Source: Coptis chinensis | Taxonomy: Eukaryota > Streptophyta > Magnoliopsida > Ranunculales > Ranunculaceae | Assembly: GCA_015680905.1 (NCBI GenBank) | Contig: CM027378.1 | Location: 5,747,001-5,811,000 of the forward strand | Reading direction: 5' to 3' | DNA: 64,000 nt | Program-made: the position numbers and the translations under genes | Shown: piece by piece, positions 3,813 through 64,000 of the stretch | Numbering within the stretch: position 1 is the first letter of the stretch | Layout of the letters: every line of letters begins with the position of its first letter | The notes under the pieces: model-generated | The model's input: only the letters and a program-made list of their open reading frames with translations | Databases searched by the model: none | Told to the model about the DNA's origin: nothing

Positions 3813-4780
3813 TTAAGTAATAAGACCCTTTAGATGCCAACCTATCCACAATGAATGGCCCTCCCAATTTTGAGAAAACTTACCCGAGCTCGGGTTATCA
3901 AAATTCTTGGCTTTTCTGAGGATCCAGTCACCAGGTTTGAAGACACGTTCTCTGAGTTTTCTATCATGACTGCGCTTCATGTTTTCTTGATATTTGACCA
4001 ATTGCTGAAGAGCTATATCCCGGCGTTCATCAATAAGAGCTTTGTCGTAAGCTAAGACTTCATCTTCAACCCGGATTTTATTGCTTGAGTTCAAATTTTT
4101 GTTGGTGCCATGATCTCTGTTTGGAGATCGCTTCGCACCATATGCTAAAGAGTATGGTGAAAAGCCACGTGGACCTTCTAGGAGTAGTCCTATATGCCCA
4201 TAGGGACCCGGCACCGACGAACCGGTTGCCTTTAGCTCGATAAGCCTTTTCTTAAGGGTATCGGGATTACCCTATTAGTAGCCTCTGCTTGGCCGTTTGC
4301 TTCAGGATGGTAAGGAGCAGAAAAATTGTGCTTTATGCTCATAGACCCACAGAATTGTTGCATCTCTATGGAGCCAAATTGGGAACCGTTATCTGATACT
4401 AATTCTGAAGGTACTCCGAACCTGCAGATAATATCACGCCACAGAAATCGCTTTACATCAGCAGTAGTTATTGAAGCCAAAGCTGTGGCTTCGACCCACT
4501 TTGTAAAGTATATAGTCGGTAGCCACCAACAAAAACCGAACTCTTCCAGGTGCCCTAGGCAAAGGTCCCACGATGTCGAGCCCCCATTTTGAGAAAGGCC
4601 AAGGGCTGAGAATTGGGTGCAGTTCTGTGGCTGGTAGTTTTCCAACTTTAGCGTACGTGTTTCTGGCACGGCACACAAATTTGAGTGATTCGTTTTGCGT
4701 CTCTTTGCATATACGGCCACCAATAACCCTGTGTTAAAGCCTTGTGGGCAAGACTGCGACCACCCGAGTGATTTCCACAA
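3813..4780 (-). pseudogene. Gypsy integrase region (fossil part)
   Basis: Frames contain the retroviral integrase core: KWVEATAL, then FGVPSELVSDNGSQF, then PYHPEANGQAEATNRV, which is the classic DNG...NGQ pattern of Ty3/Gypsy integrases. It is the last coding part of the element, reading leftwards. Confidence 0.8.
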
Positions 4781-45133: not shown

Positions 45134-45591
45134 TATGTACTTTAAAGGAAGAAATGTAGATTTTTATACGCATAGAAATGCCACTAACAAAATCAAGTAA
45201 TTGGGCTAAGAGTCCAATTTTTCCAAATATTTTCACCCCAAGTCCACTTTAATTTTAATTTCGTCATAAGTCCTATGTAAATTTAAATTTGCATATGAAA
45301 ATATTAATTTAAAATTGAAATATGTAAAATACTATATCTAAATTTAAATTTACATTACATAGGACTTATGACAAAATTAAAATTGAGAATGTGTTCTTAA
45401 GCCGAAATTTCGTCAGTCCGGTTTGGAACTTGTGGAGAAATTAAAAATCAAAGTGGACTTATGGCAAAATAATTATTGGGCTTTGTCTTTGGGCCGTAAT
45501 CTCTGTAACAAAATCGACTTGGAATTGGAACGGTAGTGTCATAATATTTATAACTAAAACAAAAAGGCAGTAACAACATTGAGACAAAGTC

Positions 45592-45667
<76 letters not shown>

Positions 45668-45968
45668 ATTCTCTAAACCTAATTTTTTTGTGGTTATGAA
45701 GCACTCACAATAATGATTATCTTCCCAAAATATAGATAAAAATTGTTGTCATATTTAAAAAGAAATCTAACGGTCCAGAAATGTTGAATTTTTGTAATTG
45801 TTTTTTGTCAATGTTAGATGTTTCCAAATAAATTGAAATTTTGTAGAGATGATCTTAATATTAAGTATATCATATCCACAAAAAAAATAGGTTTAAATTC
45901 ATTTTGTAGGTAAAATTTTACTTACGTACTTATTTTAAAGTTAATTTGAATAGCTACTTTTAAGAGAA

Positions 45969-45971
<3 letters not shown>
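45134..45971. repeat. Flanking direct repeat D, left copy
   Basis: Starts TATGTACTTTAAAGGAAGAA and runs to TTTTAAGAGAATG, followed by a (TA)n tract. It matches 62836-63616 with about six substitutions and one single-base indel outside the (TA)n tracts that I could count, so roughly 99 per cent identical. It contains an imperfect foldback: CGTCATAAGTCCTATGTAA near 45263 pairs with TTACATAGGACTTATGAC-like sequence near 45355. Confidence 0.9.
45594..45664. repeat. (TA)n microsatellite inside repeat D
   Basis: About 35 TA units. In the right copy of D the same site has only about seven units, showing fast length change since the duplication. Confidence 0.95.

Positions 45972-46023
<52 letters not shown>
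45972..46023. repeat. (TA)n tract at the left MULE junction
   Basis: About 25 TA units directly between repeat D and the left terminal inverted repeat of the large MULE. Together with 62754-62830 it indicates insertion into a pre-existing (TA)n array. Confidence 0.9.
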
Positions 46024-46027
<4 letters not shown>

Positions 46028-46167
46028 TTGTCTAGAGTGCCACTCTTATAGTGACACTCTTATCTCACTCTTCTCTTGAGCCGTGGGATCTAAGCCCTCA
46101 AGATCGAAGATCTCAATGAGGGTAAAAACGTATTTTTCCTCGTCATCTTCTCAAAACCGATCTAAAA
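46024..46167 (+). repeat. Outer terminal inverted repeat, left
   Basis: Reads CGGTTTGTCTAGAGTGCCAC and continues with CTCTTGAGCCG, CAATGAGGGTAAAAACG and AAACCGATCTAA. It pairs with 62611-62753. It is followed by tandem copies of an ACCGATCTAACAAAAA word, also mirrored at the right end. Confidence 0.95.
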
Positions 46168-46454
46168 AAAAACCGATCTAACAAAAAACCGATCTAACAA
46201 AAAAAAAAACCGAAATTGGGTTCTCTCTCTACGGCTCTCTCGACTTCTTCTTCTCATCATTTGGCAATTCGGTTTCTTCATTTGGTTTCTTCTTCTCTCG
46301 GACGGTATCATTTGGCAATTCAACTATAGTGCACTTTTGGTTATGGTGCTTGCCTATTGGAACGCTTTTAATTGACACTTGGATTGTCATTATACCATAA
46401 AACTTGAATTTTGATTTAATTTAGGTTGCTATGATTATAGTTATGATTGATACC

Positions 46455-48150
46455 CTCGTTTAAAGGCGGCGACAATTTGGTGAACTCGTCGATTCTTCAT
46501 GCCGTGATTACCGAGTTTTGAACTCGTCGAGTTCGGTGAACTAGCATATTCGGTGAACTCATGCATTATTCTTCAAAGCCAGATTACGTCGGGGAGTTCG
46601 GTGAACTCGTCGTATTATTCTTCATGCCGTGATACTCGGCCGAGTTTTGAACTCTTTCGAGTTCGGTGAACTCTGTCGTATTCTTCATGCCGTGATACGC
46701 CGAGTTTTGAACTCGTCGTATTCTTCATGCCGTGATACGCCGGAGTTGGTGAACTCTATCAAAGTTTTGAACTCTTTCGAGTTTTGAACTCGTGATGATA
46801 CGTCGAGTTCAAAACTCGGCAGAAGTTCGGTGAACTCTGTCGTATTCTTCATGCCGTATTCTGTCAGAGTTTTGAACTCTGTCAGAGTTCGGTGAAGTAG
46901 CATATTCGGTGAACTCTGTCAGAGTTTTGAACTCTGTCGTATTCTTCATGCCGTATTCTGTCAGAGTTTTGAACTCTGTCAGAGTTCGGTGAACTCTATC
47001 AGAGTTTTGAACTCTGTCAGAGTTCGGTGAAGTAGCATATTCGGTGAACTCTGTCAGAGTTTTGAACTCTGTCGTATTCTTCATGCCGTGATTCTCGCCG
47101 AGTTTTGAACTCGCCGAGTTTTGAACTCTTTCAGAGTTCGGTGAACTCTGTCGTATTCTTCATGCCGTATTCTGTCAGAGTTTTGAACTCTGTCAGAGTT
47201 TTGAACTCTTTTAGAGTTCGGTGAACTCTGTCGTATTCTTCATGCCGTATTCTGTCAGAGTTTTGAACTCTGTCAGAGTTCGGTGAAGTAGCATATTCGG
47301 TGAACTCTGTCAGAGTTTTGAACTCTGTCGTATTCTTCATGCCGTGATTACGCCGAGTTTTGAACTCTGTCGAGTTTTGAACTCTTTTCGAGTTCGGTGA
47401 ACTTTTAAATTATTCTTCATGCCGTGATTCGTGGGAGTTGGTGAACTCTGTCGAGTTTTGAACTCTTTTAGAGTTCGGTGAACTCGTCGTATTCTTCATG
47501 CCGTGATTCTCGTCGGAGTTTTGAACTACATGTCGAGTTCGGTGAACTCTATCGAGTTTTGAACTCTTTCGAGTTTTGAACTCGTCGTGATTCTGTCGAG
47601 TTTTGAACTCTTTTCGGAGTTCGGTGAACTCGTCGTATTCTTCATGCCGTGATTCGCCGAGTTTTGAACTCGTCATTGGGAGTTCGATGAACTCTATCGA
47701 GTTTTGAACTTTGTCGAGTTCGGTGAAGTAGCATATTTCGGTGAACTCGTCGAGTTCACCGAAATATATATTCGGTGAACTCTGTCGAGTTTTGAACTTT
47801 GTCGAGTTCGTGAACTCTATCGAGTTTTGAACTCTGTCGAGTTCGGTGAAGTAGCATATTCGGTGAACTCGTCGAGTTTTGAACTCTGTCGAGTTTTGAA
47901 CTCGTTAGAGTCGGTGAACTCTATCAGAGTTTTGAACTCTGTCAGAGTTCGGTGAACTAACATATTCGGTGAACTTTGTCAGAGTTTTGAACTCTGTCAG
48001 AGTTCGGTGAACTGACAGAGTTCGGTGAACTAGCATATTCGGTGAACTCTGTCAGAGTTTTGAACTCTGACAGAGTTCGATGAAGTAGCATATTTGGTTA
48101 ACTCTGTCAGAGTTTTGAACTCTGTCAGAGTTCGGTGAACTCTGTTAGAG
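46455..48150. repeat. Array of GAGTTCGGTGAACTC / GAGTTTTGAACTC near-palindromes, left arm
   Basis: Some 1.7 kb made almost entirely of two related units, GAGTTCGGTGAACTC and GAGTTTTGAACTC, joined by CTGTC or CTTTC spacers and interspersed with ATTCTTCATGCCGTGAT and AGCATATTCGGTGAA words. Each unit is an inverted repeat (GAGTTC/GAACTC) with a 3-base centre. Long predicted frames across it are repeat artefacts. Confidence 0.95.
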
Positions 48151-48241
48151 TTTTGATGTTTAAGTTATTTACACTGTTTATGTACATTGGGATTTTTTAC
48201 TGTTTAAGTTATTTATATTTTTAATTTTTCGATTTATAGAA

Positions 48242-50230
48242 ATGGGAGGCGAGACATCAATCAATATCGAAGAAGGCGTAGTTGGGTCTTCCGTTTACTA
48301 AAGCCCTGTTCAAGGCACGCAAACATTAGTCGCTCCTTATATAGGAATGACTTTTACAAGTGTTGATGAGGCAAAGACTTATTACAAAGAGTATGGTCAA
48401 CAAAAGGGATTTGAGACTTCGTGTTGGACGACGCCAAGTAACAAAATCAGTGGATTTGGTTAGTGGTTGTTTCTTGGTTTGCTCACGTGAAGGGGTTAAC
48501 AAGAGATGAAGTCCGATCAAGAAATACATCAACTATCGGTGTGGTTGCCAAGCTAGAATTAATTATTAAGAAAAGAATGCATGAAGAGATATATAGGAGG
48601 TCAGCGTTGCTCATAATGACCATAGTCACGGTCCGGTGACCCCATCGAAGAAGAATTTGCATGAAAACTAACAAACATATGCGAAGCGTGGGTGCTTGAC
48701 CGAGATATTTAGTGATAACGGTTTATCCGTTGGGAAAGTGGCATCTGTTTTCCATGGAGAGGAAGTTGGGTTTACGGAAAGATTGTTGGAACCATTATTA
48801 TGGTTTGACCGTAAAGATGCCTAAAGAAGGTGATGCAACCGCCGCGTCCGCAATATTTTATCTAAGCGGAAGAGTCTTTGAGGATCCTCGGTTATATTAC
48901 GCTATTGATTTAGATGAAAATGGGACTGCGGTGAACTTTTTCTGGGTTCATGGGAGGTCTCGATGCCAGTATGAATATTTTGGGGATGTTGTGTCTTTTG
49001 ATACCACATATCGTACCAATGAATATTCCATGCCTTTGGCCCCTTTTACTGGAGTCAACCATCATTATCAGTCGATTCAGTTTGGTTGCACATTGTTGCT
49101 TGATGAGACAGAAGATACATTCATATGGCTATTTAAGGCCTGGCTTGCAGCCATGGGTGGTCGTGCGCCAACTGCAATCATCGACCCGGGATAGGCGATG
49201 GCGGCATCCATTGCCAAAGTGTTTCCTAATACTCGTCATCGTTCTTGTCTTTGGCATATTATGCAGAAATTCAAGAGAAGATGTCATTTACCAAATTTGA
49301 GACATTGGTAAGCGAGTTGAAGAACACTATTTCTTTTTAAGTATAGGATTGTTGATTTTGAGAGAAGATGGTGTACAATCATTGAGAAGTATGAGTTGTC
49401 GAAAATCCTTGGTTGACAGAGATATATTCAATGCGGGAGAAATGGGTTCCTTGTTATCTCGGTGGCACCTTTTTTTTGGTATGCACACGACCGGGTGAAG
49501 TGAATCGATGAATGCTCATTATGACCGGTTTGTCAATTCGACGACTACGCTTTATGCGGTTTGTACATGGTAATGAGAAGTCTTTGGCTTTGCTTGCTAG
49601 GAAAGAAAAGAGATTCGATTACGCGCGAAAGCATAGTTCACGCGGATTGTGCCTAACGATGCTTTCATCCTTATGCATGCCGAAGGTCTATACGATCTCA
49701 ATATTCAATAAATTTAAAGAGCAACTAGAAAAGGCAAAGATGGAGTACAAAATTGATGGGGAACAAATTGACAAGTATGGAACCGGAAGCTACATGGTGA
49801 AATGGAGAGACCAATTGAAGAATTCGTTTGGAGAGTGAGTTTCGATAGAGGAACCTTAGAGGGAGATCTGCGAATGCAAGTACTTTCAGTTTATGGGTTT
49901 GCTTTGTGGTCATATCTTAAAGGTTTTTATACGCTACGAGATTGAAGAGATTCCAAACCATTTTAGATTGACGCGGTGGATGCAAAAGTCTAACACTTAT
50001 AGAGCGGAGTTTGATCTTTGGATTTGTGGTGGGAATGTCTCAAATGAACCTTTGAGAGTGGCTCATTCTATCAAGGTTGCTTCTCAAGTGGCTTACGATC
50101 GTCGATACTTTTGAGGGTTATTCATATTTTATTGAAAAGATTGGTGAAATGGCTATTGAAATTTCAAAGTTTAATGAGACTTCCTACAAAGGAGACGAGA
50201 AGTTGCAGAGCCTTCTCGATACAACCGGTT
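48242..50230 (+). pseudogene. FAR1-type MULE transposase, damaged
   Basis: Starts at ATG 48242 (MGGETSINIEEG). The FAR1 DNA-binding domain lies at about 48340-48690 (GMTFTSVDEAKTYYKEYG, VCSREGVNK). The MULE transposase core lies at about 48955-49290: the first catalytic Asp in DVVSFDTTYRTNEY, then APFTGVNHHYQSIQFGC, ETEDTFIWLFKAWLAAMGG, and a CLWHI. Next come SMNAHYDRFVNSTTTL and IFNKFKEQL, and a SWIM zinc finger CECKYFQFMGLLCGHILKVF at about 49868-49927. The usual ITDQD second-Asp motif reads IIDPG followed by a stop, and there are several other stops and frame changes. It is related to FAR1/FHY3 proteins and should bind its own ends and cut DNA when intact. Confidence 0.85.
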
Positions 50231-50369
50231 AATACATCACGTGTTTTTTTTATTTGAATGTTTAATTTGATATAAATTTAGTGTTTAATTCGGTGTTTAA
50301 TTTGATATAAATATTTATTTTAATTAGGTCTTTATTTCAGCTATTTATTTTGAATCCCAACATTTCTCA

Positions 50370-50512
50370 AACAAAAGGGAGGGGAAGAAGAAAGCGGATA
50401 GATGGAAATCCCCCAAAGAGATAGCCCTAAACAATTCGGGGAAGAAAGTGTCACAGATGTGGAATGATTGCTAACCATGACTCGAGAAATTGTCGGGGAA
50501 AAAAAATAATAC
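50370..50512 (+). pseudogene. C-terminal zinc-knuckle exon of the MULE transposase
   Basis: After an intron-like AT-rich gap the plus strand reads KREGKKKADRWKSPKEIA and, after a frame change, ANHDSRNCRGKK. A Lys-rich segment followed by a C...GH-DSRNC knuckle is the usual end of FAR1- and mudrA-type transposases. The first Cys pair is blurred by the frame change. Confidence 0.5.
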
Positions 50513-50879
50513 GTAATCGTCGATTGTAAGTATAGCTTTATTCAAAACTCTTTCATTCTAAATGTTCACTAGTTCTAATGATATTTTATCTCTGGCGTCA
50601 TGGACTTCATTGATGTCCGGACTTGTTAAGAGTGGTTTAGATATGGCAGCCTTGTTAGAGTTTTATCAAGTGTTGTTAAGTTGAACTGTGTCGAGGGTTG
50701 TGTTCCATTGCATCATTATGTCCATTGGATAGTATCTAATGTTGTCTGCTAGCTAGGCTCTAGATAGGAAACATCATAATGATAGACCGGTGCTTTTTTT
50801 GATAACTTCTTTCTCCTTTTTATTTTCAAAGTTCAATATTGCTAGTTTAGGTTACATTTGGGGAGTTTAATTAGACCGA

Positions 50880-51345
50880 GTTCTAATCTCATTGATGTTG
50901 TAGAAAAGAGAAGTATGGCTCAAGGAGAAATGGAGAATCTGGAGGCAAAGCTTTGCTTTAGGTAAAAATATGCCTACTCATCATTCGTTTCGCCCTCGAC
51001 TTTGCATCGGTCGATCTTGATCTTTTCATCATTCTCTGCGGTTATGTTTCGATTTCTGGTTCCACAAGATGCCACAGTATCACCGCCACCTTGACTATGC
51101 ACCATTCAAGAAAGTCGTCAAAATTGAGTTATTAGCTACACGGGAGAAATTGTCGTGAAAAGAGCGAGAGAGAAGAAGCGAAGTGTTGAAAGAAGGTGGA
51201 GAAGTTGAAGAGCTGAAACTTGGAGTGAAAGGCTTGAACAAGCCAAAGCTAGGTGCAAAAGCGGGGCTATACTTGTTGCTAATTCATTCGATGTGCTTAA
51301 ATGTTGTAATACGAGAACAATAATATTTGGGATTGCATAAAGCAT
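50880..51345 (+). pseudogene. Possible further transposase or accessory segment, unrecognised
   Basis: Short coding-like pieces: MAQGEMENLEAKLCF-type sequence near 50915, a Cys/Phe-rich stretch near 51030-51090 and a Lys/Glu-rich, coiled-coil-like stretch at 51140-51270. None keeps one frame for long. No family is recognised. Confidence 0.25.
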
Positions 51346-51579
51346 TTTGATGTGCTTATTATAAATGTTTCTTTGTTGTTACCTGGCGTGCCCACTTGCA
51401 ATTTTGTTTCGTAAGTTGATATGATGTATTGATGCGGATACTATACCACCCAATTATAATGCCAACGCGTTTGTCAACAACAAATTTACCTCAACTCATA
51501 TGATCATCAATCAACATCAACACAAACAAACCAAACCGATAAATTGCCAAAACATCAACATCAATGATATGGACTTAGT

Positions 51580-52015
51580 ATGGCCATATCGTTTGGATTT
51601 GAATTTGGATAAAAATGGCGGTGTCTGTTTGGACTAAGTCCAAACGGTGTGGCCATGCCGTTTGGGACAAAGTCCAAACAGACACGCCATTTTTGCAAGT
51701 TCAAAGTCCAACGGCATGGCATTACCGTTTGGCCTTAGTCTCAAACGGTGTGGCCATGCCGTTTGGAACTAAAACCAAACGGTGTGGCCACACCGTTTTG
51801 GACTTTGAACTTGCAAAAAAAAATGGTGTCCTGTTTGGACTTTGTCCCAAACGGCATGGCCACACCGTTTGGACTTAGTCCCCAAGCGGCATGGCCATAC
51901 CGTTTGGTAAAAAAGGCCAAACGGTGTGGCCATGCCGTTTGGGACTAAGTCCAAAAACCGACGCCCATTTTTTGCAAGTTCAAATCCAAACGATATGGTC
52001 ACACCGTTCAAGAGG
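51580..52015. repeat. Array of CCAAACGG...CCGTTTGG palindromes between the convergent genes
   Basis: About ten or more copies of CCAAACGGTGTGGCCATGCC followed by GTTTGG, in both orientations, joined by TTGGACTTTGTCC or TTGCAAGTTCAAAGTCC words. Each unit is an imperfect palindrome of about 26 bp centred on TGGCCA. It sits just past the transposase gene and before the end of the convergent PMD gene. Confidence 0.9.
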
Positions 52016-52034
52016 CAAAAAAACAGATCTTTTG

Positions 52035-52255
52035 TGTTTTGGCAAAAACATTGCGTACTGCATTAGATTTTTGTGTTTTGGTAAATAACATTGGGATTTT
52101 TGTTGATAACATTGGGATTTTTGTGTTCTGCATTAGAGATACTAATAGAGATAACATTGGGATTTTTGTATTCTGCATTAGAGATACTAATAGAGATAAC
52201 ATTGGGACATTAGAGATAACATTGGGACAATGTTTTGCATTAGATTATTAATAGA
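52035..52255. repeat. Tandem repeat of ATAACATTGGGATTTTTGT / TTAGAGATACTAATAG units
   Basis: Three to five imperfect copies of a unit of about 55 bp (ATAACATTGGGATTTTTGTG, then TTCTGCATTAGAGATACTA), following directly on the palindrome array. 52260-53180 holds no recognised gene; it includes a CANCRRAQEE-type phrase on the plus strand and a duplicated CTCCCGCGATCATCTCAACTA word near 52990 and 53068. Confidence 0.8.
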
Positions 52256-54264
52256 GATACTTCGATGTGACAAATTAAAATGCGCAAATTGTCGGAGAGC
52301 ACAAGAAGAGCCATTGAATGGATATAAACCGAGATCTAAGCAAAAACACATACATACGATACCGGTAAGTAGTATAACTGTTTACTCCACTGACAGCAGA
52401 CGTCCTATTAAAATCAATGCTTGCTAATAGCAGAAACATAACCAAAGGCAATGTGACATGAAATACATGAAACCCTAGGATCTTAGGTGAACATGAAAAG
52501 AATGACAAGTCCAAAGCAAGATCACTATCATTTCATATTTCAACAATGTGACACCATGTGAAATACATTGTTTGAATTACTGAACGTACATAAAGCTAAG
52601 TTGCTACATATCAACAACTTGCACTTACAAAAGAGTCCTAACATAACATTTTTTGACTACAAAGAGATTTCCAATCTAACTTTCTGACTTTATCTCCTTC
52701 CTGCAAAACAAAAAAATTGAATAAACAGATCAGTCAAGCAAAGTTAAATCAAACTGCTTTATTAAGGTATGACAGAAAAACTAACCTCTCCACTTGCTTC
52801 CTCATGTTCACCATCTTCCGCCACCACCATTTGCCTAATTACCCCCCAATAAAAACACATGAATCAGTATAAATACTACCACATATGTCAACAACACCAA
52901 ATCTAGAAACCTCATTGATTGGAAAACTCTTGAACTTAAGTCATGATCAACTCTCAAAAGAACAAAGAAAGACAAATGCCAATAAACACTCCCGCGATCA
53001 TCTCAACTAGCACAAACTGAAAAGTAAAAAGCAAAACCAAAGATCATCTCAAATGCCAATAAACACTCCCGCGATCATCTCAACTAACACAAACAAACCA
53101 TTTCCATTTCCAACACTCGTCCCAACACAAGATAAAAGGAAGTAAACTAACCAAACTAACCACTAAACCCTAAACTAACCAAACTCAACATACCTAAATC
53201 CTATGCTCCTTCACGATATCGTCCGCCAATGAACTTGCACGGGTCAAATTGTATGCCTCCATGAATTAGTTACGTGCATTCTCTCGGAATCGCAGATCCA
53301 CCCAATTTGCAGGCCTTGATTGAGCAAGCGAGAAATTTCATCGACGACGGGTGCTTTGGGAAAATTAAAACACAAAACTACATTAGTATATACATTTACA
53401 TTTATAAAATACCAAAACAAAACAAAACAAAAATTAACGTTGTAAGATATTAACTCACTTTGATTATGATATGGAAGACTCTGTAGGGAGTAGTGACTAA
53501 GATGATCAGGGTTTATCATTCGAATATGACTATTGTTTTCGTACCAACTCATGTATCTACTAACACACTCCCATGGATAAGACGGAATGGGTCCTCGTTG
53601 TTCAAGTTGAATCAAGTGATTCTGCCAATTACTCCAGTAGGAAGACGCAATATTAAATTTCACATCATACCCGCGTCCGGAAGTAGTTCGCGTCGAGGTC
53701 TTTGGTTTTGGGGGATCTGAGGGTACAAACTGCATATGACCCAACTGACGCACAACCCTCACAACATTGTACTGCTCGACATTATCAAGAAAGCATATAA
53801 ATCCCTCGAAAAATGTTATTTCATCCACCGGCCGTGTAGCTCGGACTTCAACATAGGGATACCATTCAACCTGTCAAATAGCATATGATCGAGGAAATTA
53901 ATCATTAATCACATACTAATAATATTAATTAATAAATAAAACTATTTATATACAAAAATGCTTACATCGGTACAAGTCATATTATCAATGGTGGCTCGGG
54001 TATACTTCAATGCAAATTGTTGTGCTAGCATAAAAGATTGAGTGCGAAAGTACCTATTAGCACGGGACATGCTCAAATGATAGTCCTCATTTGGGTATGG
54101 CCGAACACCGGAAGTACTCATAAATCCATGCCTACATTAATATAGACACCGAAGTTAATATTGTAATAGATAGATAAAATTGACATTGAAAAGAAAAACA
54201 AAAAAACTAATACACGTAGGAGAGTGAAATAGCCCCGAAACACCCTTCACCTTGGCACTTGTGG

Positions 54265-54460
54265 CGGTCCCAAGACCTACAAGTAAGCCGGTAGAAGGTG
54301 CACCCCAGCGTAGTCTCGATCTCGGCAAATTTGAAAATCGCCTCGGATAACAAATGGGAACACCGTACAAGTAAGCCGGTAAAGAAGTCGCACCCCACGC
54401 CGTAGTCTCCTCGATCTCGGCAAAATTTGAAAAGCGATCTCGGATAACAAACGGGGCTGC
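54265..54460. repeat. Tandem duplication of about 88 bp within a PMD exon
   Basis: The segment ACAAGTAAGCCGGT...GATCTCGGCAAA...TCGGATAACAAA occurs twice, giving PFVIRDRFSNFAEIEE and then a second, shifted version, FPFVIRGDFQ. It is specific to this copy and would disturb the PMD fold. Confidence 0.8.
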
Positions 54461-55417
54461 AGTTCGGGCGATGTCGGTGAAGGCGGTACATCCAAAGAAA
54501 AATAACAGATAAGCTCTCAAGCAAACTACACCTCTTTTTGGGTTGACGCCTTCTTCACAACAACCCTATTTTTTCATCACGTAAATCTTCATCCGTTACC
54601 TTCCCAAAGAAACTGCTTCATCAAGAAATCCATCCTAACTTTGGAAGTGAACTTATTGGATTTCATCTCGCGATCTATCTTATCCATGGGTATGCCAAGA
54701 TTTTTGTGGAGGTTTTTTTGTTCAAAGGTCATCGGTGTCGGTGTCCCCGATCGCTTTTGCCTCGATCGAAACTCCTAAGAGTTGGGAAACATCGCCCAAC
54801 GTGATTGTCATCTCGCCCCACGGCATATGAAACGTGTTGGTCTCTGGATGCCACCTCTCCACAAACGCAGAGACCAACACAGGATCCTGATGCCTATATA
54901 CACCTAAGACCAGAGCACATAAGCCGGTCCTTTGAAGCTCCACGTGAAAAGTAGAACAGTCTGAACACTCTCCTCTGATATCCCATTGTACCAACTTGTT
55001 TAGGTGCCCATGGCACTTCAACACCCCTCGCTCCGCCTAAAACAACAAAAACTTAGTATTAATGTATGCACAAGTTTCGTAATACAAAATTTAAATACTA
55101 ATAGACACTATATGATAATATTACCTGCCCCTCCCAAACATCGCGAGCCACGTGCACTGCATAGTCATACAACAGATGTGACACACAAGGGCCACCTCCA
55201 TAAACACCTCTCTTGAACTCCAAGTCATTGTTAGACTTTCTCACAATATTCACTGGAGGTACAGGTACATGGACTTCCTCGTCATCCTCCTCCTCCTCCG
55301 CGTCCTCCGCGTCCTCTTCCTCCTCGTCAGCCTCCTCTTCTGCATCATCAACACCCTCTTCTTCACTATCAGCATGACTTAGAACTACACTCTTCCCACG
55401 ATCCATATTTACGTCAT

Positions 55418-55478
55418 TGTCATCTACATCTACATCTACATCTATATCTACATCTAAATCTAAATCTACATCTACATC
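55418..55478. repeat. (ATCTAC)n hexamer repeat in PMD exon 1
   Basis: About ten ATCTAC-type units on the plus strand, reading as an Asp-Val repeat on the minus strand in the frame that joins the Asp/Glu-rich region. Confidence 0.85.
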
Positions 55479-55929
55479 GCATCATTTCTTTAATCGCCCT
55501 TTCTTCTCTTTTGATTTCCTAACTCTACACCACTTACAACATTACTGGGATCATCCGCTTTCCGATCCCCTCTATGAACTGATGCCGAAGTGGTTGTTCT
55601 CCTTCCTCTCTTTTTCTCAGGCTCCTCATCGCGACCCGAACTACTACTCCCCCCACCTAACAACTTCTTAGCACCGCGGAAAACACTTTTTTTTTGCATT
55701 CTTCACATTCAGATTCTTTGTTTGAGGCATTGCTACAAAATAAATAGGAGTTAAAATAAGACATTCAACTAATTCAAATTGTTGCAATACCAACGTGAAA
55801 AACAAAGAACGAAATAAGGCGTGTGCATGCCAATCTATATCTAAGGTGTGCATGTATCTAGGCAAACTATACTCCTCTATTAAATCCCCCTCCACACACT
55901 AACAAAAAACCCAATCTAATTCAAGCAGC

Positions 55930-57420
55930 GCGAAATCGACTAGGAAAACTTTTGCGAGAACGATTCATGTAAAACTTTAAAGCCGCCATGGAGATAATGA
56001 ACATCGAAAAAAGAAGCACATTTGTAAAAACGAAAATAGTCGACGCCGCATAAGAGAAAGACAATATAAGACATCGTGATTCGAAAACTAGCAAGTCGGG
56101 TAACCTCTTTTAGTTTTATGCGGCGTGTGAGTTGAAGTTTTACAACATCTAAACTTAAAAGAATTTCTTAGGCCATAAGCTTTTATTAAGGGGTGGGACT
56201 TTTTCAAAACCTTTAAAGCTTTGTGGAATCTCGCTGGCGGCAATCAAGGTATGTCATCAAGCATCAATAAACCAACTTTGAAAGCCTGCTTGGCGAAGTT
56301 CGCTTATTTCTTTGAAAGCCCTGCCTAATCACTTGAGATGGGGGTGCCCTTAGAATAGAATTCTAAACCGCGTGGCGCTTTTGATCAATAGGAAGAGGAT
56401 CACTCCGCCATGGTGAACGTAACTCTTGGCAACTTCCATCCGCCAGAAGCAAAATGACCTTCCAAGACAAGATAAGAAATAGGTCCGGCCAACATCGTCA
56501 TTCCTCTTAATTCGAATGGGACTATACTTGGTGGTCATTGCCGTACAAAATCCGGATGGATGGAACATTTGTCTACCCCCATTTCGAAGTTTAAAGTGAT
56601 AAATGTTAAAGCGGAATCTCAGATTCCAAGATAACATAGGCGCCAAGATAAATAGGCGTTGACTCGATCTAAGAAGCATGGCGACGGTCGGCTCTCCAAC
56701 ACGAACAACCGGCCCCCGGAAGGACTTAAGGACAAATGCCCCGGGCCTAGGTCGAGAGGCATAGGTTTATCTAGTCCAAGTAGGCTATATGAAAGAAGGG
56801 AGAATGCCACTTGTCGTTACTAAGTAATATACCTTAACGCTGCTGCCTGAAAACCCAACCAATTCTACAAGGACTGCGCCCTATCTCAATCAAGATTTTA
56901 TCTCTCCAAGGAGGAGCCTACTAGGCCCTTCACTCCTGAATGGGTATAGAGATGTCTTCAACAAAGCATGTCCCCGAAAGGCGACTTTCTGCACCTACCC
57001 CGCCCCTGCCTAAATTAGATATAAGTTCAAGACGGGTTGGGGGTAAAAGGCTAAGCCAAACTACCACCTACCCATCGCTTAAGGGATGTTGTGAGAGGTA
57101 GTACCCCTTCTTGGCCGAGAGCGCATACATAAATGATGTGGTCCCCGGATTACTTAATATTAGTAACAAGAGATTGGTCTTTTGTAGTGTGATGAGTAAC
57201 TATAGAGATCGAGGTTGAGATCAAATCACATCTTGTTTTACTAAGGCTTGGCGCGACCCGAGTAAGGCGACTCTTTCCCTCTTTTGTTTTCATCCCCGCA
57301 TCTTTGGTATGTCCGCAAGACCCTAAAGTTTAATATAATCCTCATCAAGTTCTGGGGACTCTCTCTTTACTTGTAGTTAAGTAACTTTAAGGCAACGACA
57401 ACCGCCGGTGTAAGGACCGG
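55930..57420. other. Block of unlike composition, possibly organelle-derived (NUMT-like)
   Basis: The block is GC-richer than its surroundings and has no plant-nuclear repeat character. Its texture (CTTGGCAACTTCCATCCGCC, CCCGAAAGGCGACTTTCTGC, ACCGGCCCCCGGAAGGACTT) recalls plant mitochondrial intergenic DNA. Frames on both strands are short and no known gene was read. It lies upstream of the PMD gene, inside the MULE, separating that gene from the right arm. Mitochondrial origin is an impression from style, not a match. Confidence 0.35.
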
Positions 57421-57529
57421 TTCTAAGCGTGACTTAGAATCAGACCTTGGTTACGTTTTTGGAATTTTTGTACTTAAATCATACAAAAATGGGGTTTATT
57501 CAACAATTTTGAATATATATGCCATGTTT

Positions 57530-57785
57530 CCGGATGCAAGCTCATGACCCACGAAGTCTCGAGCTCGAAAGCAAGTCGAGCTTCACTCGAGCTCGTTTTG
57601 TAAAACGAGTCGAGTCGAGTCGAGCTCGAGCTAATTATAATTCAAATCGAGTCGAGTTTGAGCACAAAGTGGAGCTCGACATTGAGTTTGACCTCGGCTC
57701 GAACTTCGACTCAAAACTCACGAGCGAATCGAGCATGCCAATAATACTCGCCTCACTCGACTCGATGACCACCCCTAATCAAAGG
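57530..57785. repeat. GAGCTCGAGTCGAG-rich repeat, hAT-derivative-like
   Basis: Alternating CTCGAGCTCG, GAGTCGAGTCGAG and GAGCTCGACATTGAG words, as in a common class of small plant hAT-like repeats with self-complementary CTCGAG motifs. The frame across it is a repeat artefact. 57800-58520 holds nothing recognised. Confidence 0.5.
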
Positions 57786-58527
57786 GGAACAACTGTCGAT
57801 ACTCGATCTTAAGTCTCTAACTCAAAAACTAAATTGATTTATCAGTATACATTATTTTTATTTTTATTATTTTTGGGTAAATTTTATCAGTAATTCAGTA
57901 TACATGAGTATGTACTGTTTTGCTATTGATGTTGTTCCAAAGGATGTGTAAGCTAATAAATCAAAGGAACACTTATATGAAGCTCAACAGCATAGAGTTA
58001 CTCATGACTTTTGGCGAGGATGATCTACACATCGTGGTCTTGTGGAGATCGTCGTAGCAAAAACTTATTACTTACCTTGTTTTGACCTGAAAGGTGTCAG
58101 TACTATTAACATGAATTCTATAAGAATTATTTGTACTTATATTATATATATTTCTTATAATAAAAGAACAGATTGGATGACATGGATTCTATAATAAAAG
58201 ATACCATCTTGGCATCTTCCATATTCCAATCATTAACGACTTTCATAGAGTTCAACCACCAGTAACATAACTAGTTCAGAACTTTAGATAAGTGAGAGCA
58301 AAAGTAAGAGTCAATTGAAGCTCCGCATATCATTGTTTATTATATTTTTCTTAATAATCAGAAATTAGATGTTACTTGGGTTGTGACAAACCGGCCTCCG
58401 TCCATATTACATCCTTTCTTGTGAAGTGTGACTGGAACACTACTAACAAAGTTCCCCAGGGAAAGTGCAACATGAAAGCCCTATAACTTAATGGAGACTA
58501 TGAGCACCCTGTAAAGGGATTATGGGG

Positions 58528-58917
58528 ATGGATGTGGATCTTACGGAACGTATCTATATATATCCGCTATACTTGCGAAAATATAAATTTTGTTATACTC
58601 GAAATCTTGTGAAACTTGTGTTAGATGGATGACCACTAGCTAGGTTCAGCTTTATTTTGGTTTTCATGCATTCTTAACTTCATTTTAAGAATGGGTGATA
58701 TCAACAAAATGGGTGATATCAACAGGGAAAGTACAAAATGGGTGTCTAGAATTCAAAAGAATTGAATCAAACATAACATTATATATATAAAAAAAAAAAA
58801 AAGAAGATATAGAAAGATAGAACAGGTTAATTCTAAACCGAGCTATATATTTATTTTGAATCAAGCAAAAGCAAGATACTCCGATCGATATGGCCTCAAA
58901 TAAAAATCTAGTGATAC
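58528..58917. repeat. Direct repeat pair, first copy
   Basis: Starts GATGTGGATCTTACGGAACG and ends AAATAAAAATCTAGTGATA. It matches 60467-60829 at well over 90 per cent, with small indels. A 20-bp word (AATGGGTGATATCAACA) is doubled only in this copy. The 1.5 kb between the copies has no recognised gene. Confidence 0.9.
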
Positions 58918-60466
58918 ACATACACACACAAAAGAGAAAAAGGAAACTGAATAACTCTTCTATTAATTAGTGTATTTAGCTCTGACTTTGGAAAACTCAA
59001 TTTTCTGCACTTTGTTGCTAAATAGTGGGATATTATGTATCAAGATTGTATTGTGTGGATAAGATTTTTGGGGTGTTTGCTTAGTTGGATCTGCTATTGG
59101 ATTTCTCTTGTTCTCTATGTGTGAGTTACCTAAATCTACTTTGCTTAACAAACGTTTTCTTTACTAATAATGTACTAACATAAAAGAATGAGTGTTTACA
59201 TTTGGTGTGTGAAAAGGATGCTGTTCTATGATATCCTTCCTCTGCCATGAATTTCAGCCTATAACTGTCAGTGCGCTTTGCTAGAATGCTACCCTACATT
59301 ACTGAAAATATCCCAAATAAATAATATATGTGATGTCGAATTAGTGCTCAAGTGGTGTCTTGTCATCTTTTCACCTTTGATCGATCTGTATGAACTCTAT
59401 GTTGAATTTGGTATCGTTTCTACATTTCTCTTGATCACATCTTTGTTGGAAGATTTAGACTTTGGATTCGGTTAGCTTTTTGGGAAATATTTCGGAATAA
59501 GGTTTGTGACTTTGTACAACTTAAAGATTTAATTTAGTTGACTGAGATCGGTACCATAAACTAGTAATCTGATGAGAATTTGAAGAGTAGTAACCTTTGA
59601 GAGTTTATCTGACGTTGAAGTGTTCGATTTACTATGTATTGGTGCCGATCGGTTAACTGAAACACAATAAGCATCTAAGTATATTGGTTGTATATAAAGC
59701 ACAGACGCTTTGGCTTGATTCAAGACAATGAATTGGTCATTAGTTCACATAAGGGTTTGTTGTACTCGTAGTACCTAGCCTTATTCACCGTTCTGAGAAG
59801 GAAGTACCCAAGTAGCAGGATTGACTCCTCGCGATAAGCCAAAGTGATGACTTAAACATTCAATCGAAAGTCCAAGATATAGCCCAAATAAGTCTAATTT
59901 GGATTGGCAGTCCAGTTTGACAACATACGACAAAATGATCATAACTTTCTCTAGAAACCTTTGTTTTGCGAACCGTAAATTTGGTTGGAAACTAGACTTC
60001 ATGAGCTTTCTAGTGGTGTGTGTTATGTATGGAGAAACGTCCTATTCAGATTCAAGTTTGACTTTGAACTTAGAAGAAAATCAGGAATAGTTTTAATGCT
60101 TGTCTCTTCAAGATCCGAAGTTTGTATTTAGCTATAAATTCTCTAAGACTTGTAATGGAAGTAGAGCAGTATTTGAATGAAGATATAGGACTTTTATTGA
60201 GAAGAAGTGGTTCTTCTTGGTGAAACAACTCTTATCTCTTTGGTGGATTCCATAGAGTGGTGAGTTCTAGTAACACAACTCTTATCCCTTTGGTGGATTT
60301 CCATAGGGCAGCGAAGTTCTTTGTTTTCTCTTAGTTTGTGCTTGTATTTACTTCCTATTACACCATTCTAAATGGTGTCACAAAGAGCTTGTCTAACTTC
60401 ACTTCTCTGATTATCAACTGATTTATCCTTCCTGAGTTTGGTGAATGCAAAACTTCGATATCATTT

Positions 60467-60829
60467 GATGTGGATCTTACGGAACGTATCTATATATATC
60501 CGCTATACTTTTAAAAAAATATAAATTTTGTTATACTTTCGAAATCTTGTGAAACTTGTGTTAGATGGATGACCACTAGCTAGGTTCAGCTTTATTTTGG
60601 TATTCATGCATTCTTAACTTCATTTTAAGAATGGGTGATATCAACAGGGAAAGTACAAAATGGGTGTCTAGAATTCAAAAGAATTGAATCAAACATAACA
60701 TTATATATATATAAAAAAAAGAAAAAGATAGAAAGATAGAACAGTTACCTGAAACAGAGCTATATATTTATTTTGAATCAAGCAAGCAGTACTCCAGTCG
60801 ATATGGCCTCAAATAAAAATCTAGTGATA
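60467..60829. repeat. Direct repeat pair, second copy
   Basis: Counterpart of 58528-58917. It ends TCTAGTGATATCAACAGG, only about 80 bp from the right arm of the MULE. The pair could be the terminal repeats of a small non-coding insertion or a local tandem duplication; neither primer site nor target duplication was seen. Confidence 0.85.
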
Positions 60830-60894
60830 TCAACAGGAGAGACAATAAGTTCATAACTTCATTGTTTGATTTAATGATTTATTTATTTTGAACT

Positions 60895-61014
60895 TGGATA
60901 AACATAACATTGATGTCTCTGTCTCCATTTCTATAAATCAAAAAAATTAAAAATATAAATAACTTAAACAGTCAAAAATCCCAATGTACATAAACAGTGT
61001 AAATAACTTAAACA
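60895..61014. repeat. Right-arm copy of the transposase leader
   Basis: On the minus strand this reads AAACAGTGTAAATAACTT's complement, then TTTGATTTATAGAAATGGAG and ACAGAGACATCAATGTT. It mirrors 48150-48275 on the left, where TCGATTTATAGAAATGGGAG opens the transposase. So the inverted repeat of the element extends into the first codons of the transposase. Confidence 0.85.
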
Positions 61015-61672
61015 TCAAAACTCTGACAGAGTTCGGTGAACTCTGACAGAGTTCACCGAATATGCTACTTCACCGAACTCTGATAGAGTTCACCGAACTC
61101 TAACAGAGTTCACCGAATATGTGTTTGTCACCGAACTCTGACAGAGTTCAAAACTCTGATAGAGTTCGGTGAACTCTGACAGAGTTCAAAACTCTGATAG
61201 AATTCAAAACTCTGACAGAGTTTACCGAACTCTGACAGAGTTCACCGAATATGCTAGTTCACCGAACTCTGACAGAGTTCAAAACTCTGATAGAATTCAA
61301 AACTCTGATATAGTTCACCGAATATGCTAGTTCACCGAACTCTGAAAGAGTTCAAAACTCTGAAAGAGTTCAAAACTCTGACAGAGTTCACCGAATATGC
61401 TAGTTCACCGAACTCTGACAGAGTTCAAAACTCTGATAGAGTTCACCGAGCTCTGACAGAGTTCAAAACTCTGACAGAGTTCAACACTCTGAAAGAGTTC
61501 ACCGAACTCTGACAGAGTTCAAAACTCTGATAGAATTCAAAACTCTGACAGAGTTCACCGAATATGCTAGTTCACCGAACTCTGACAAAGTTCAAAACTC
61601 TGAAAGAGTTCAAAACTCTGATAGAGTTCACCGAACTCTGACAGAGTTCAAAACTCTGACAGAATACGACAT
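61015..61672. repeat. Array of GAGTTCACCGAACTC near-palindromes, right arm
   Basis: About 0.65 kb of the same units as the left array, in inverted orientation (AGAGTTCACCGAATATGCTA, AGAGTTCAAAACTCTGA). It is shorter and more regular than the left array. Confidence 0.95.
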
Positions 61673-61674
61673 GA

Positions 61675-62440
61675 AGAATATTTTTTTCGGCAATTTAGGA
61701 TTTTGATTGCATAGCAGAAAAGGTTTTCCCAGCATAGATATATGATGAACGAAAGTTATCATGCTTATGTTGGTTGTCGTTCTATTAACTTTGGTGGTTG
61801 CCCAAAGCAAGCGTATGTCTCTCTTGAACATAGTGGATCCAATGGTCCGACACTCCGACTCTGAATTGTATATATGGTTCTACTTCTTTAGAACCCGGTT
61901 TGCATACACGAACCTGTCTAGAAGAGGAATCAACTCCAAGGGTACCTCTACCATGTTGTATGCTTATTGCTTAGGCACCAATCAAATGTGCCACATTTGC
62001 TACCATATAAGCATATAGGTAGATTGGCTGCATTTCTTTTTTCCTCATCGGCTGCTAATGTTCCTCAAAATCTTAGTTATTACTTACTACTACGGATTTT
62101 CACTATTGCAGTTTGATGGACAAATACTCGTCAAAATCATCTATCCGCTTAGTATACTCAACAGGAAAAAAAATGGTTACTCCAGCTCCTCAAAACAGAC
62201 AAGTCTGAGTCGTACTTACAAGTTTACAAGGACTAAAATACTACAAGATACAATGCACTTTTTTCTTAACCAATTGATACAATGTACATCAAGTAACTAA
62301 CCAATTTATACAAATACGATTTCAGGCCAAAGTAGAGAATAAAATGTGTTAATGGAAGCATACCTTAATTGGAACTCGAGAGAGAGTGAAGTTTAGAGAG
62401 CTCAGGTGGTCGTTAATGGCGATGGAAATATGTAATTACT
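61675..62440. other. Right-arm-specific segment with a coding-like phrase
   Basis: Between the right array and the outer repeat there is about 760 bp, against about 290 bp at the matching place on the left, and the two do not look alike. The plus strand reads MMNESYHAYVGCRSINFGGC, then PKQAYVSLEHSGSNGPTL, at about 61741-61860. This looks like a piece of an exon, family unrecognised; possibly captured sequence. Confidence 0.35.
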
Positions 62441-62749
62441 ATAGTCGATCTTTTTTTTTTTTTTGCTAGATCTGTTTTTTTAGGTGGTTGTTAATGGCGA
62501 TGGAATTGGGTACTGATAAAGTCGATCCCTCTTTTTTTTTTTTTTGTTAGATCGGTTTTTTTTTGTTAGATTTTTTTTTTTTTTTTTTGTTAGATCGTTT
62601 TTTTTTTTTTGTTAGATCGGTTTTTGAGAAGATGATGAGGAAAATACGTTTTTACCCTCATTGAGATCTTCAGATCTTGAGGGCGAGATCCGACGGCTCA
62701 AGAGAAGAGTGAGATAAGAGTGTCACTATAAGAGTGGCACTCTAGACAA

Positions 62750-62753
<4 letters not shown>
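62441..62753 (-). repeat. Outer terminal inverted repeat, right, with T-rich tandem words
   Basis: 62611-62753 is the reverse complement of the left terminal repeat. Just inside, at 62441-62635, several T-run plus GTTAGATCGG units mirror the left-end ACCGATCTAAC words and have expanded. Confidence 0.9.

Positions 62754-62830
<77 letters not shown>
62754..62830. repeat. (TA)n tract at the right MULE junction
   Basis: About 38 TA units directly after the right terminal repeat, followed by CGTAT and then repeat D. Confidence 0.95.
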
Positions 62831-62835: not shown

Positions 62836-63616
62836 TATGTACTTTAAAGGAAGAAATGTAGATTTTTATACGCATAGAAATGCCACTAACAAAATCAAGT
62901 AATTGGGCTAAGAGCCCAATTTTTCCAAATATTTTCGCCCCAAGTCCACTTTAATTTTAATTTCGTCATAAGTCCTATGTAAATTTAAATTTGCATATGA
63001 AAATATTAATTTAAAATTGAAATATGTAAAATACTATATCTAAATTTAAATTTACATTACATAGGACTTATGACAAAATTAAAATTGAGAATGTGTTCTT
63101 AAGTCGAAATTTCGTCAGTCCGGTTTGGAACTTGTGGAGAAATTAAAAATCAAAGTGGACTTATGGCAAAATAATTATTGGGCTTTGTCTTTGGGCCGTA
63201 ATCTCTATAACAAAATCGACTTGGAATTGGAACGGTAGTGTCATAATATTTATAACTAAAACAAAAAGGCAGTAACAACATTGAGACAAAGTCGAATATA
63301 TATATATAGTAATTCTCTAAACCTAATTTTTTTTGTGGTTATGAAGCACTCACAATAATGATTATCTTCCCAAAATATAGATAAAAATTGTTGTCATATT
63401 TAAAAAGAAATCTAACGGTCCAGAAATGTTGAATTTTTGTAATTGTTTTTTGTCAATGTTAGATGTTTCCAAATAAATTGAAATTTTGTAGAGATAATCT
63501 TAATATTAAGTATATCATATCCACAAAAAAAATAGGTTTAAATTCATTTTGTAGGTAAAATTTTACTTGCGTACTTATTTTAAAGTTAATTTGAATAGCT
63601 ACTTTTAAGAGAATGA
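62836..63616. repeat. Flanking direct repeat D, right copy
   Basis: Near-identical to 45134-45971, same orientation, ending TTTTAAGAGAATG plus a short (TA)n tract. It includes the same internal foldback. Confidence 0.9.
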
Positions 63617-63632
63617 ATATATATATATATAT

Positions 63633-64000
63633 GGGGCTGGCTACCTTGACAGCTCCATTTGACAGCTTATCTTGACATATCATCTTAACCATCCAGATCT
63701 TACAAAATCAATGGACAGATCGTGGTTTTTGTTAACAAAAGAATAGAGCAGGGGTAGACTGGTCATTTTACAATTTAATAAGAAATAGCAATTGAAATAT
63801 GTTTTCTTCCTCCGTCTCCTCTCTCTCTCTCCATCTCAAGTGAATTGAAAATTTTCCCTCTCAATCCTTCATTTTTTCTCTTATTAAAATTAAACTTTAA
63901 AGAAAACGAAGCAAGGCGAAAATTAAACTTGAAGGGAAAGGCGACTTTGAAGAGAGAAGACGGATGAAGCTAGTCAAAAAATGAAACTTCAAGAAGATGA
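63633..64000 (+). mobile_element. Probable left end of a second (TA)n-inserted element, cut by the window edge
   Basis: Right after a (TA)n tract the sequence changes to GGGGCTGGCTACCTTGACAG, then TTTGACAGCTTATCTTGACA and TTAACCATCCAGATCTTAC. The plan, short repeated GACAGCT words then a CCATCCAGATC phrase, parallels the outer repeat of the large MULE (ACACTCTTATC words, then GAGCCGTGGGATC) without being the same family. The partner end would lie beyond the window. No coding sequence is recognised here. Confidence 0.4.

Follow-up and report, generated by a model that had tools for sequence, protein, structure and literature searches.

Several MULE lineages are known to carry a PMD gene along with the transposase. 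Table 1 of Dupeyron 2019 (PMC6446971) gives antisense PMD for the MULE groups MUDR, MUDRAVI2, MDR, MULE-Monocots and MULE-Solanaceae_1, including most of the MUDR group itself; for these plant groups the table lists SWIM or CCHC fingers and does not mention FAR1. In the same table, the plant Jittery sub-group (group 36) has a FAR1 N-terminus, SWIM or CCHC, a single ORF and no PMD. In addition, MULE transposase-PMD fusions are described from grasses and Amborella (Ikeda 2017, PMC5418596). PMD proteins silence plant transposons, as reported for MAIN and MAIL1 (Ikeda 2017, PMC5418596; 2021 review, PMC8616336), yet transposons themselves carry PMD genes. Here we describe an element in a 64,000-nucleotide stretch of the Coptis chinensis genome (the window). 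Like the antisense-PMD groups, it is a MULE with PMD antisense to the transposase, but its family combines FAR1 with SWIM; like the fusions, it is a MULE-borne PMD, but one encoded as a separate gene on the opposite strand. The first-pass annotation proposed that PMD takes the place of mudrB, an idea already in print (Dupeyron 2019, PMC6446971). The apparent novelty lies in the pairing of PMD with a Jittery-type (FAR1) transposase whose targets are TA repeats; it adds a FAR1-type lineage that targets microsatellites to the known MULEs with antisense PMD.

The element occupies positions 46024-62753 of the window (16,730 bp) and is sited in a TA microsatellite, with long (TA)n runs directly adjoining both ends (45972-46023 on the left, 62754-62830 on the right); because of insertion into (TA)n, the 8-11 bp target site duplication is unreadable in this copy. 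From 46024 the left end reads CGGTTTGTCTAG..., and the reverse complement of this finishes at 62753. The outer parts of the terminal inverted repeats lie at 46024-46209 (plus strand) and 62578-62753 (minus strand). Their outermost 60 bp are identical, and the first 150 bases have 143 matches, 5 mismatches and 4 gap positions, which agrees with the long TIRs of MULEs; a genome search recovered the right repeat at C2:5809605-5809753. The inverted similarity between the ends extends to about 2 kb, chiefly in inverted subterminal arrays built of a GAACTCTGTCAGAGTT-type repeat. The left array, of GAACTC/AACTCTGTCAGAGTT-type repeats, spans 46480-48156 (plus strand) and the right array 61015-61663 (minus strand). 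Exact AACTCTGTCAGAGTT is found 13 times on the plus strand and once on the opposite strand of the left array, 13 times on the opposite strand in the right array, and nowhere else in the window. The long terminal repeat has its inner edge, with the transposase start codon in it, at 48148-48261 (plus strand); the inverted copy of this edge at 60909-61023 (minus strand) may serve the PMD gene as 5' leader or promoter. A hairpin-forming minisatellite (51578-52008) separates the two convergent genes.

Insertion into TA microsatellites is characteristic of MULEs such as MuTAnT and TAFT. Among the ends of the present family that were examined, a TA run adjoins 11 of 14, lies within about 15 bp in two and is absent at one, a tally that includes copies L002 and L008, whose common flank may reflect one duplication. 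The target is the one described for Jittery and AutoMuTAnT/MuTAnT (PMC4486113). The end of the latter, GGGGTTTGCTAGAACA, is similar to CGGTTTGTCTAGAGTG of the window element, and the AutoMuTAnT transposase is described as similar to that of Jittery (PMC4486113). However, AutoMuTAnT is 4.9 kb long with a single ORF, whereas copies of the present family measure 12-17 kb and also possess a PMD gene in convergent orientation, along with long subterminal arrays.

The transposase gene (48242-50520, plus strand) is decayed but recognizable by Pfam comparison of the window ORFs and of copies L039, L041 and L042, with MULE DDE, SWIM, a CCHC-like knuckle and, from a copy, FAR1. Its start, read from the sequence and the copies, is the ATG at 48242. 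The MULE-type DDE domain PF10551, which assigns the element to the MULEs, covers roughly 48988-49182 in the window (E 1.6e-17) and has E 2.6e-33 in L039; SWIM covers roughly 49869-49937 (E 4.1e-6). The N-terminus of the window copy is broken, and the FAR1 domain was scored on L042 (E 1.8e-14). The CCHC knuckle was identified by eye, its Pfam matches being weak (0.03-0.08). A FAR1 N-terminus (L042) together with SWIM (window) corresponds to the domain set of Jittery group 36. It does not single out that group, because half of the plant members of group 35 (Hop) have FAR1 as well (Dupeyron 2019, PMC6446971), and the single ORF of group 36 contrasts with the convergent PMD gene here.

The PMD gene is on the minus strand and converges on the transposase, and its five exons are legible through comparison with the copies. 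Together with the Pfam matches, this bears out the first-pass annotation's description of inverted repeats enclosing a plus-strand FAR1/SWIM MULE transposase and a convergent five-exon PMD gene. In an alignment of 16 copies, a conserved acceptor-like site, TTTTGTAG (TTTTTTAG in one of the 16), precedes the start codon of exon 1 (55730-55125); a basic and then an acidic stretch follow, and the donor GTAATA is conserved. Exon 2 (55036 to about 54215) carries, over roughly 54749-54889, the N-terminal part of PF10536, which scores above the Pfam cut-off (E 8.9e-18). It is broken in the window copy but open in L039 (233 aa), and contains near 54295-54373 a tandem duplication that is missing from almost every other copy in the alignment. 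Exon 3 (54131-53966), open in L040 and L031, gave no Pfam match when searched alone. Exon 4 (53870 to about 53459) corresponds to the C-terminal part of PF10536, whose match at 53538-53873 (E 8.7e-7, 28.9 bits) falls under the 34.9-bit curated cut-off. Exon 5 (53353-53201), read from the sequence and the copies, ends the gene with a stop codon.

In the element subfamily PMD has a regular place as second gene, and transposase and PMD have been amplified together as a unit. Among 270 transposase and 188 PMD places listed, 21 convergent pairs 5.9-7.9 kb apart were found, against a mean of 0.14 and a maximum of 2 in a shift control, and four further copies (L048, L049, L050 and L057) were confirmed by reading the sequence to have PMD in place. 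At least 25 copies share the place and orientation of PMD with similar spacing. One copy aligns nearly end to end with the window element; the unit aligns over 14,557 bp to a copy on C6 and, with large gaps, over 12,126 bp to one on C7, and across both genes the alignment is largely continuous at about 85-95%. PMD lies inward of 10 of the 40 terminal ends scored (two being the window copy's own) and outward of none; six of these ten also have a transposase among the matches listed, always in the convergent layout, and eight of the 14 ends with an inward transposase have no PMD among the matches listed. These counts come from genome searches in which, out of hundreds to thousands of candidates, the 40-150 best were scored: the best 40 of 205 places in one search, 40 of 41 in the terminal-end search and 101 of 103 in another, which left out two second fragments of listed genes; of the 3774 first-look PMD candidates, the best 60 places entered one comparison and the best 30 that with PF03108. 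The co-occurrence that the first-pass annotation had proposed as a check is present, and on the pairs, alignments and ends its suggestion of a second gene in a MuDR-like convergent layout holds as regards the layout and the gene's standing in the family.

The same annotation named related elements without PMD as evidence against its reading, and these exist in part. Sister elements whose transposase is 81-90% identical to that of L039 are without PMD in the parts read (L052 and L056 almost through, L058 and L059 in part), and their ends are similar to those of the two-gene form. Since three of them have the right end in common, they have multiplied; they would also fit the single-ORF trait of Jittery group 36. 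The genome seems to contain a form with PMD and a form without it, which are closely related, have multiplied separately and offer a natural comparison for whether PMD aids escape from silencing. The subterminal arrays are not specific to PMD, because L052, L058 and L059 carry them too. In this the family differs from VANDAL21/Hiun with VANC (PMC5735166), another MULE that has both an accessory gene and non-coding tandem repeats; the accessory gene is VANC there and, by its Pfam match, PMD here. A role of the arrays as PMD targets in the manner of VANC was accordingly dropped as evidence.

The first-pass annotation also held PMD to be better kept than the transposase, as if selection had acted on it longer. 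As a count of disabling changes the former is correct: outside the indel-prone acidic stretch and exon 5, PMD has fewer than the transposase in all six copies, with 0.86 against 1.38 per 100 nt in the window copy. As a sign of selection it finds no support, because codon positions differ about equally and out-of-frame dN/dS is the same in the six-copy sets. The ratio of position 3 to the mean of positions 1 and 2, counted for PMD outside the same two regions, is 1.10 (0.94-1.31) for PMD in 16 copies, and in six copies 0.98 (0.76-1.21) for PMD and 1.04 (0.83-1.27) for the transposase. In-frame dN/dS in the six-copy sets is 0.71 for PMD and 0.61 for the transposase, and the out-of-frame controls (0.70 and 0.72; 0.67 and 0.56) are equal to these, so an initial case for purifying selection was withdrawn. 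For the 16 PMD copies, 13 in the element layout and three outside it, in-frame dN/dS is 0.58 (0.48-0.70), and the out-of-frame values of 0.73 (0.60-0.90) and 0.72 (0.60-0.88) have overlapping intervals; this is suggestive of constraint, yet the codon positions do not differ. Changes common to L029 and L038 include no stops, and 16 of 32 fall at codon position 3 (P 0.06; Fisher 0.12), with a weaker leaning (9 of 21) in those common to L015, L029 and L038; taken as changes on one internal branch, these give no significant result. The partial copy L038 was used for the common changes and lies outside the dN/dS, codon-position and exon-alignment sets, and the partial transposase copies L002, L004, L006 and L008 were aligned but lie outside the six-copy counts. 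Overall, neither gene shows clear selection among copies.

On balance, we favour, with some reserve, the joint reading that the window holds a decayed copy of a co-amplified, two-gene subfamily of FAR1-type (Jittery-like) TA-microsatellite MULEs in which PMD is accessory. Its long terminal repeats flank the transposase gene and the convergent PMD gene, and each terminal region would be the promoter of the adjoining gene, as in MuDR, whose promoters are placed in the TIRs (PMC3310237). The existence of sisters without PMD argues for an accessory rather than an essential gene. It is moderately likely at best that the protein would stand outside the transposition machinery and act in trans, blunting host silencing, for example by competing for partners with MAIN and MAIL1, its host relatives; carriers might then gain an advantage in spreading, although PMD would not be needed for transposition. 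A counter-silencing role is plausible, the link to silencing coming from the literature, where it has been suggested that element-encoded PMD proteins may counter silencing (Ikeda 2017, PMC5418596; 2021 review, PMC8616336). The main rival, tentative but serious, is that PMD was captured once, from the host or another element, and has been copied along since with no benefit to the element. Gene capture is reported as frequent in MULEs (PMC6446971, PMC5418596), sisters without PMD in the parts read have multiplied, and PMD is without a codon-position signal. Moreover, of seven loci inspected, four have the same PMD gene in other surroundings with no transposase among the matches listed, in two cases beside a DUF538 fragment, which fits ordinary gene capture. 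Against this, the multi-exon gene, splice sites and acidic N-terminus included, can still be recognized across the copies, and PMD recurs in antisense in several MULE groups (Dupeyron 2019, PMC6446971), as would hardly be expected of a useless passenger; the stop-free changes common to L029 and L038, leaning to codon position 3, also speak against it.

That the PMD protein would itself take part in transposition, for instance in insertion, as a mudrB-like helper, is in our view improbable. The window element shares with maize MuDR two convergent genes adjoining long terminal repeats, PMD being next to the second repeat, and mudrB is apparently required for integration (PMC6446971). The second gene differs, however, by its Pfam match, as do the FAR1-type transposase and the microsatellite target. 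In addition, sisters that have similar ends and arrays but no PMD in the parts read have multiplied, although the protein may be supplied in trans, and among solved structures none matched L009, the single PMD protein compared, which is outside this PMD family. A later chance insertion of an unrelated PMD gene or PMD-bearing element into the window copy alone is very hard to credit, even though PMD sequences are abundant in the genome and the gene also occurs outside the layout, because the layout is common to the copies and contradicts it.

There is also a modest chance that PMD is an exchangeable accessory cassette, gained by one branch of FAR1-type, TA-targeting MULEs and, bordered near its own ends, passed to or from other element surroundings without that transposase. 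Such movement, if true, would make most sense if PMD benefits its carrier, for example by protection from silencing. The 188 PMD places have none of the 150 listed places of the MuDR-type DNA-binding domain PF03108 within 40 kb, so this domain gave no driver for the PMD genes outside the layout. For other PMD clusters (L033 and L012), no comparable transposase was found in the 7 kb read downstream (L053 and L054). Two of the 30 best PMD candidates, L021 and L033 of another cluster, are within 40 kb of a PF03108 domain.

The transposase and PMD genes of this element are linked and have been amplified together in the source genome, which its content marks as that of a plant (935.6 Mb, 116 contigs, nine of them chromosome-size; the window is C2:5747001–5811000). 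After merging, the transposase and PMD searches yield 270 and 188 places, respectively, counts which, like those of pairs, are lower bounds because only the best 101–150 of 2706–4545 first-look candidates were scored per search. Among the places listed are at least 21 convergent transposase/PMD pairs with a spacing of 5.9–7.9 kb and six other pairs within 30 kb, as opposed to 0.14 pairs on average and never more than 2 in 1000 circular shifts, and the proposal that PMD belongs to the element as a unit is thus borne out. For 167 of the 188 PMD places, no transposase is found within 12 kb among the matches listed. Five top relatives of the transposase for which no partner is listed were read, and decayed PMD was detected in four of them (L048–L051, of which L051 subsequently entered the pair list) and none in the fifth, L052; another locus, L057, also carries PMD in the sequence read. 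Counting the window, at least 25 places have both genes.

Most of the window element, with both of its terminal repeats, is matched by a copy on contig C6 (14,557 bp), and larger parts of the right half are missing from a copy on C7 (12,126 bp). Since the C6 copy lacks 57837–58744 and the C7 copy most of 56071–60653, insertions or deletions make the right part of the element variable. This part also contains direct repeats, each about 390 bp long, with 89% identity (58531–58916 and 60467–60829). PMD is present within 18 kb inward of 10 of 40 scored terminal ends and outward of none. Transposase is listed within 30 kb inward of 14 of these ends; PMD is also present at six of the 14, in the convergent layout in every case, and is absent among the matches listed at the other eight. 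The two-gene places, the C6 and C7 alignments and the inward position of PMD rule out a chance neighbour.

The element spans 16,730 bp (46024–62753). Its ends are inverted copies with the outermost 60 bases identical, and their first 150 bases align with 143 matches, 5 mismatches and 4 gap positions. A short palindromic repeat forms a long array inside each end, in opposite orientation on the left and right, and the inverted similarity reaches the transposase start codon at 48242 (48148–48261 versus 60909–61023). Long TA runs adjoin both ends. Of 14 ends examined in the family, 11 are abutted by a TA run, two have one within about 15 bp and one has none, so this family inserts into TA repeats. 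This target matches that of MuTAnT of Medicago, whose published end, GGGGTTTGCTAGAACA, is similar to that of the window element and whose transposase is described as Jittery-like (PMC4486113). Two copies on C4 of the genome (G000; L002 at 101747 kb, L008 at 101871 kb) have one flank in common and therefore possibly represent one segmental duplication, not two insertions.

Both genes are broken in the window copy. The plus-strand gene encodes a MULE transposase, for which MULE and SWIM domains were scored in the window and the FAR1 N-terminus in another copy (L042, E 1.8e-14); a CCHC knuckle is visible by eye in transposase copies. The minus-strand PMD gene has five exons, with the PMD domain scored in exons 2 and 4 (exon 4 under Pfam's cut-off), and most of 16 aligned copies retain the splice sites of its first intron and an acceptor-like site before the start codon. 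Between the convergent genes is a hairpin minisatellite of the CCAAACGGYRTGGCCA type (51578–52008), and one of this type also follows the PMD gene in the locus L015 (3409–3790).

The same genome contains related elements whose sequence, as far as read, has no PMD. In L052 and L056, whose transposases are 88% and 81% identical to that of copy L039, no PMD was found from 0.4–0.5 kb past the transposase match through the right end. The L052 right end is common to L058 (88%) and L059 (83%) over about 520 bp, and the distance from transposase match to right array is about 3.4 kb in all three; in L058 and L059 (transposases 90% and 88% identical), PMD is absent from the parts read, about 3 kb of each being unread. 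In L055, which is more distantly related (67%), the 7 kb read contain no PMD. Regular absence of PMD from related elements, which the first-pass annotation named as evidence against its reading, is thus seen in part: L052 and L056, read almost through, lack the gene, as do L058 and L059 in the parts read.

Among seven PMD loci of the family inspected with 1.5-kb flanks, the match to the window is confined to the gene in four (from 53161, or 53200 in L015, to 55783 in L015, L025 and L029 and to 55113 in L038), and similarity to the element extends past the gene in the other three (L019, L031, L035). No transposase is found within 250 kb of these four among the matches listed. L025 and L029 have a common upstream flank with a DUF538 fragment (L025 3484–3843, plus strand, E 1.3e-10; L029 20–319, minus strand, E 0.012, under cut-off), which was not seen at L015 or L038. 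In the PMD tree, L015, L029 and L038 form a fully supported group, and all four loci are placed among transposon copies, a weak placement in a star-like tree. PMD proteins of other clusters (L012, 1420–2154, plus strand; L016, L027, L033) weakly match DUF1985 and DUF7745 (E 2e-4 to 0.025, under cut-offs), and the sequence downstream of L012 has a weak match to DUF1985 (L054 6055–6537, minus strand, E 0.0064); these domains may be distantly related.

By analogy with MuDR, whose terminal regions are reported to drive its genes (PMC3310237), each terminal region would drive one gene. The PMD protein would be an accessory acting on silencing, a reading in which we have moderate confidence and which is drawn from the literature: the PMD proteins MAIN and MAIL1 silence transposons (PMC5418596, PMC8616336), and an anti-silencing use of PMD by MULEs is a speculation of Ikeda 2017 (PMC5418596). 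The subterminal arrays resemble the tandem targets of VANC (PMC5735166); since sister elements without PMD have arrays too, these are not counted as evidence for a silencing role.

The strongest rival explanation is that PMD is a passenger gene. Judged by codon positions, copies of both genes decay without a clear sign of coding constraint, the per-position divergence being 0.069, 0.065 and 0.073 in 16 PMD copies and 0.057, 0.062 and 0.062 in six transposase copies. In the six-copy sets, dN/dS is the same in the right frame as in wrong frames, and in the 16 PMD copies it is 0.58 in frame versus 0.73 and 0.72 out of frame, with overlapping intervals. PMD had been described as better kept, as if under longer selection. 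In all six copies it does carry a smaller number of disabling changes than the transposase, in a count that excludes exon 5 of PMD and its acidic part, which is prone to indels, but neither the codon positions nor the dN/dS controls indicate clear selection.

Antisense PMD in MULEs is already published: Table 1 of Dupeyron 2019 gives it for several MULE groups, including most of the MUDR group (PMC6446971), and Ikeda 2017, which reports transposase–PMD fusions, credits the first rice MULE with PMD to Babu 2006 (PMC5418596). In the same Table 1, the plant Jittery sub-group has FAR1, one ORF and no PMD (PMC6446971). The window element is of the FAR1 type like this sub-group but has a convergent PMD as its second gene. 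Among the open-access papers listed by our literature searches, we found none that describes a FAR1-type or TA-targeting MULE with convergent PMD, and Repbase may hold such elements; the combination appears to be new.

Directly repeated copies of a sequence of about 800 bp lie on either side of the window element (45134–45990 and 62836–63632; 762 matches, 6 mismatches and 1 gap, TA runs excluded). Unlike the usual target duplication of a MULE, this pair has the appearance of a tandem duplication into whose TA junction the element inserted. The right flank copy finishes in a further TA run, followed by GGGGCTGGCTACC... (63634 to 64000), apparently the terminus of a second MULE that targets TA. 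At C2:5814532, about 3.5 kb past the window end, there is a MULE transposase.
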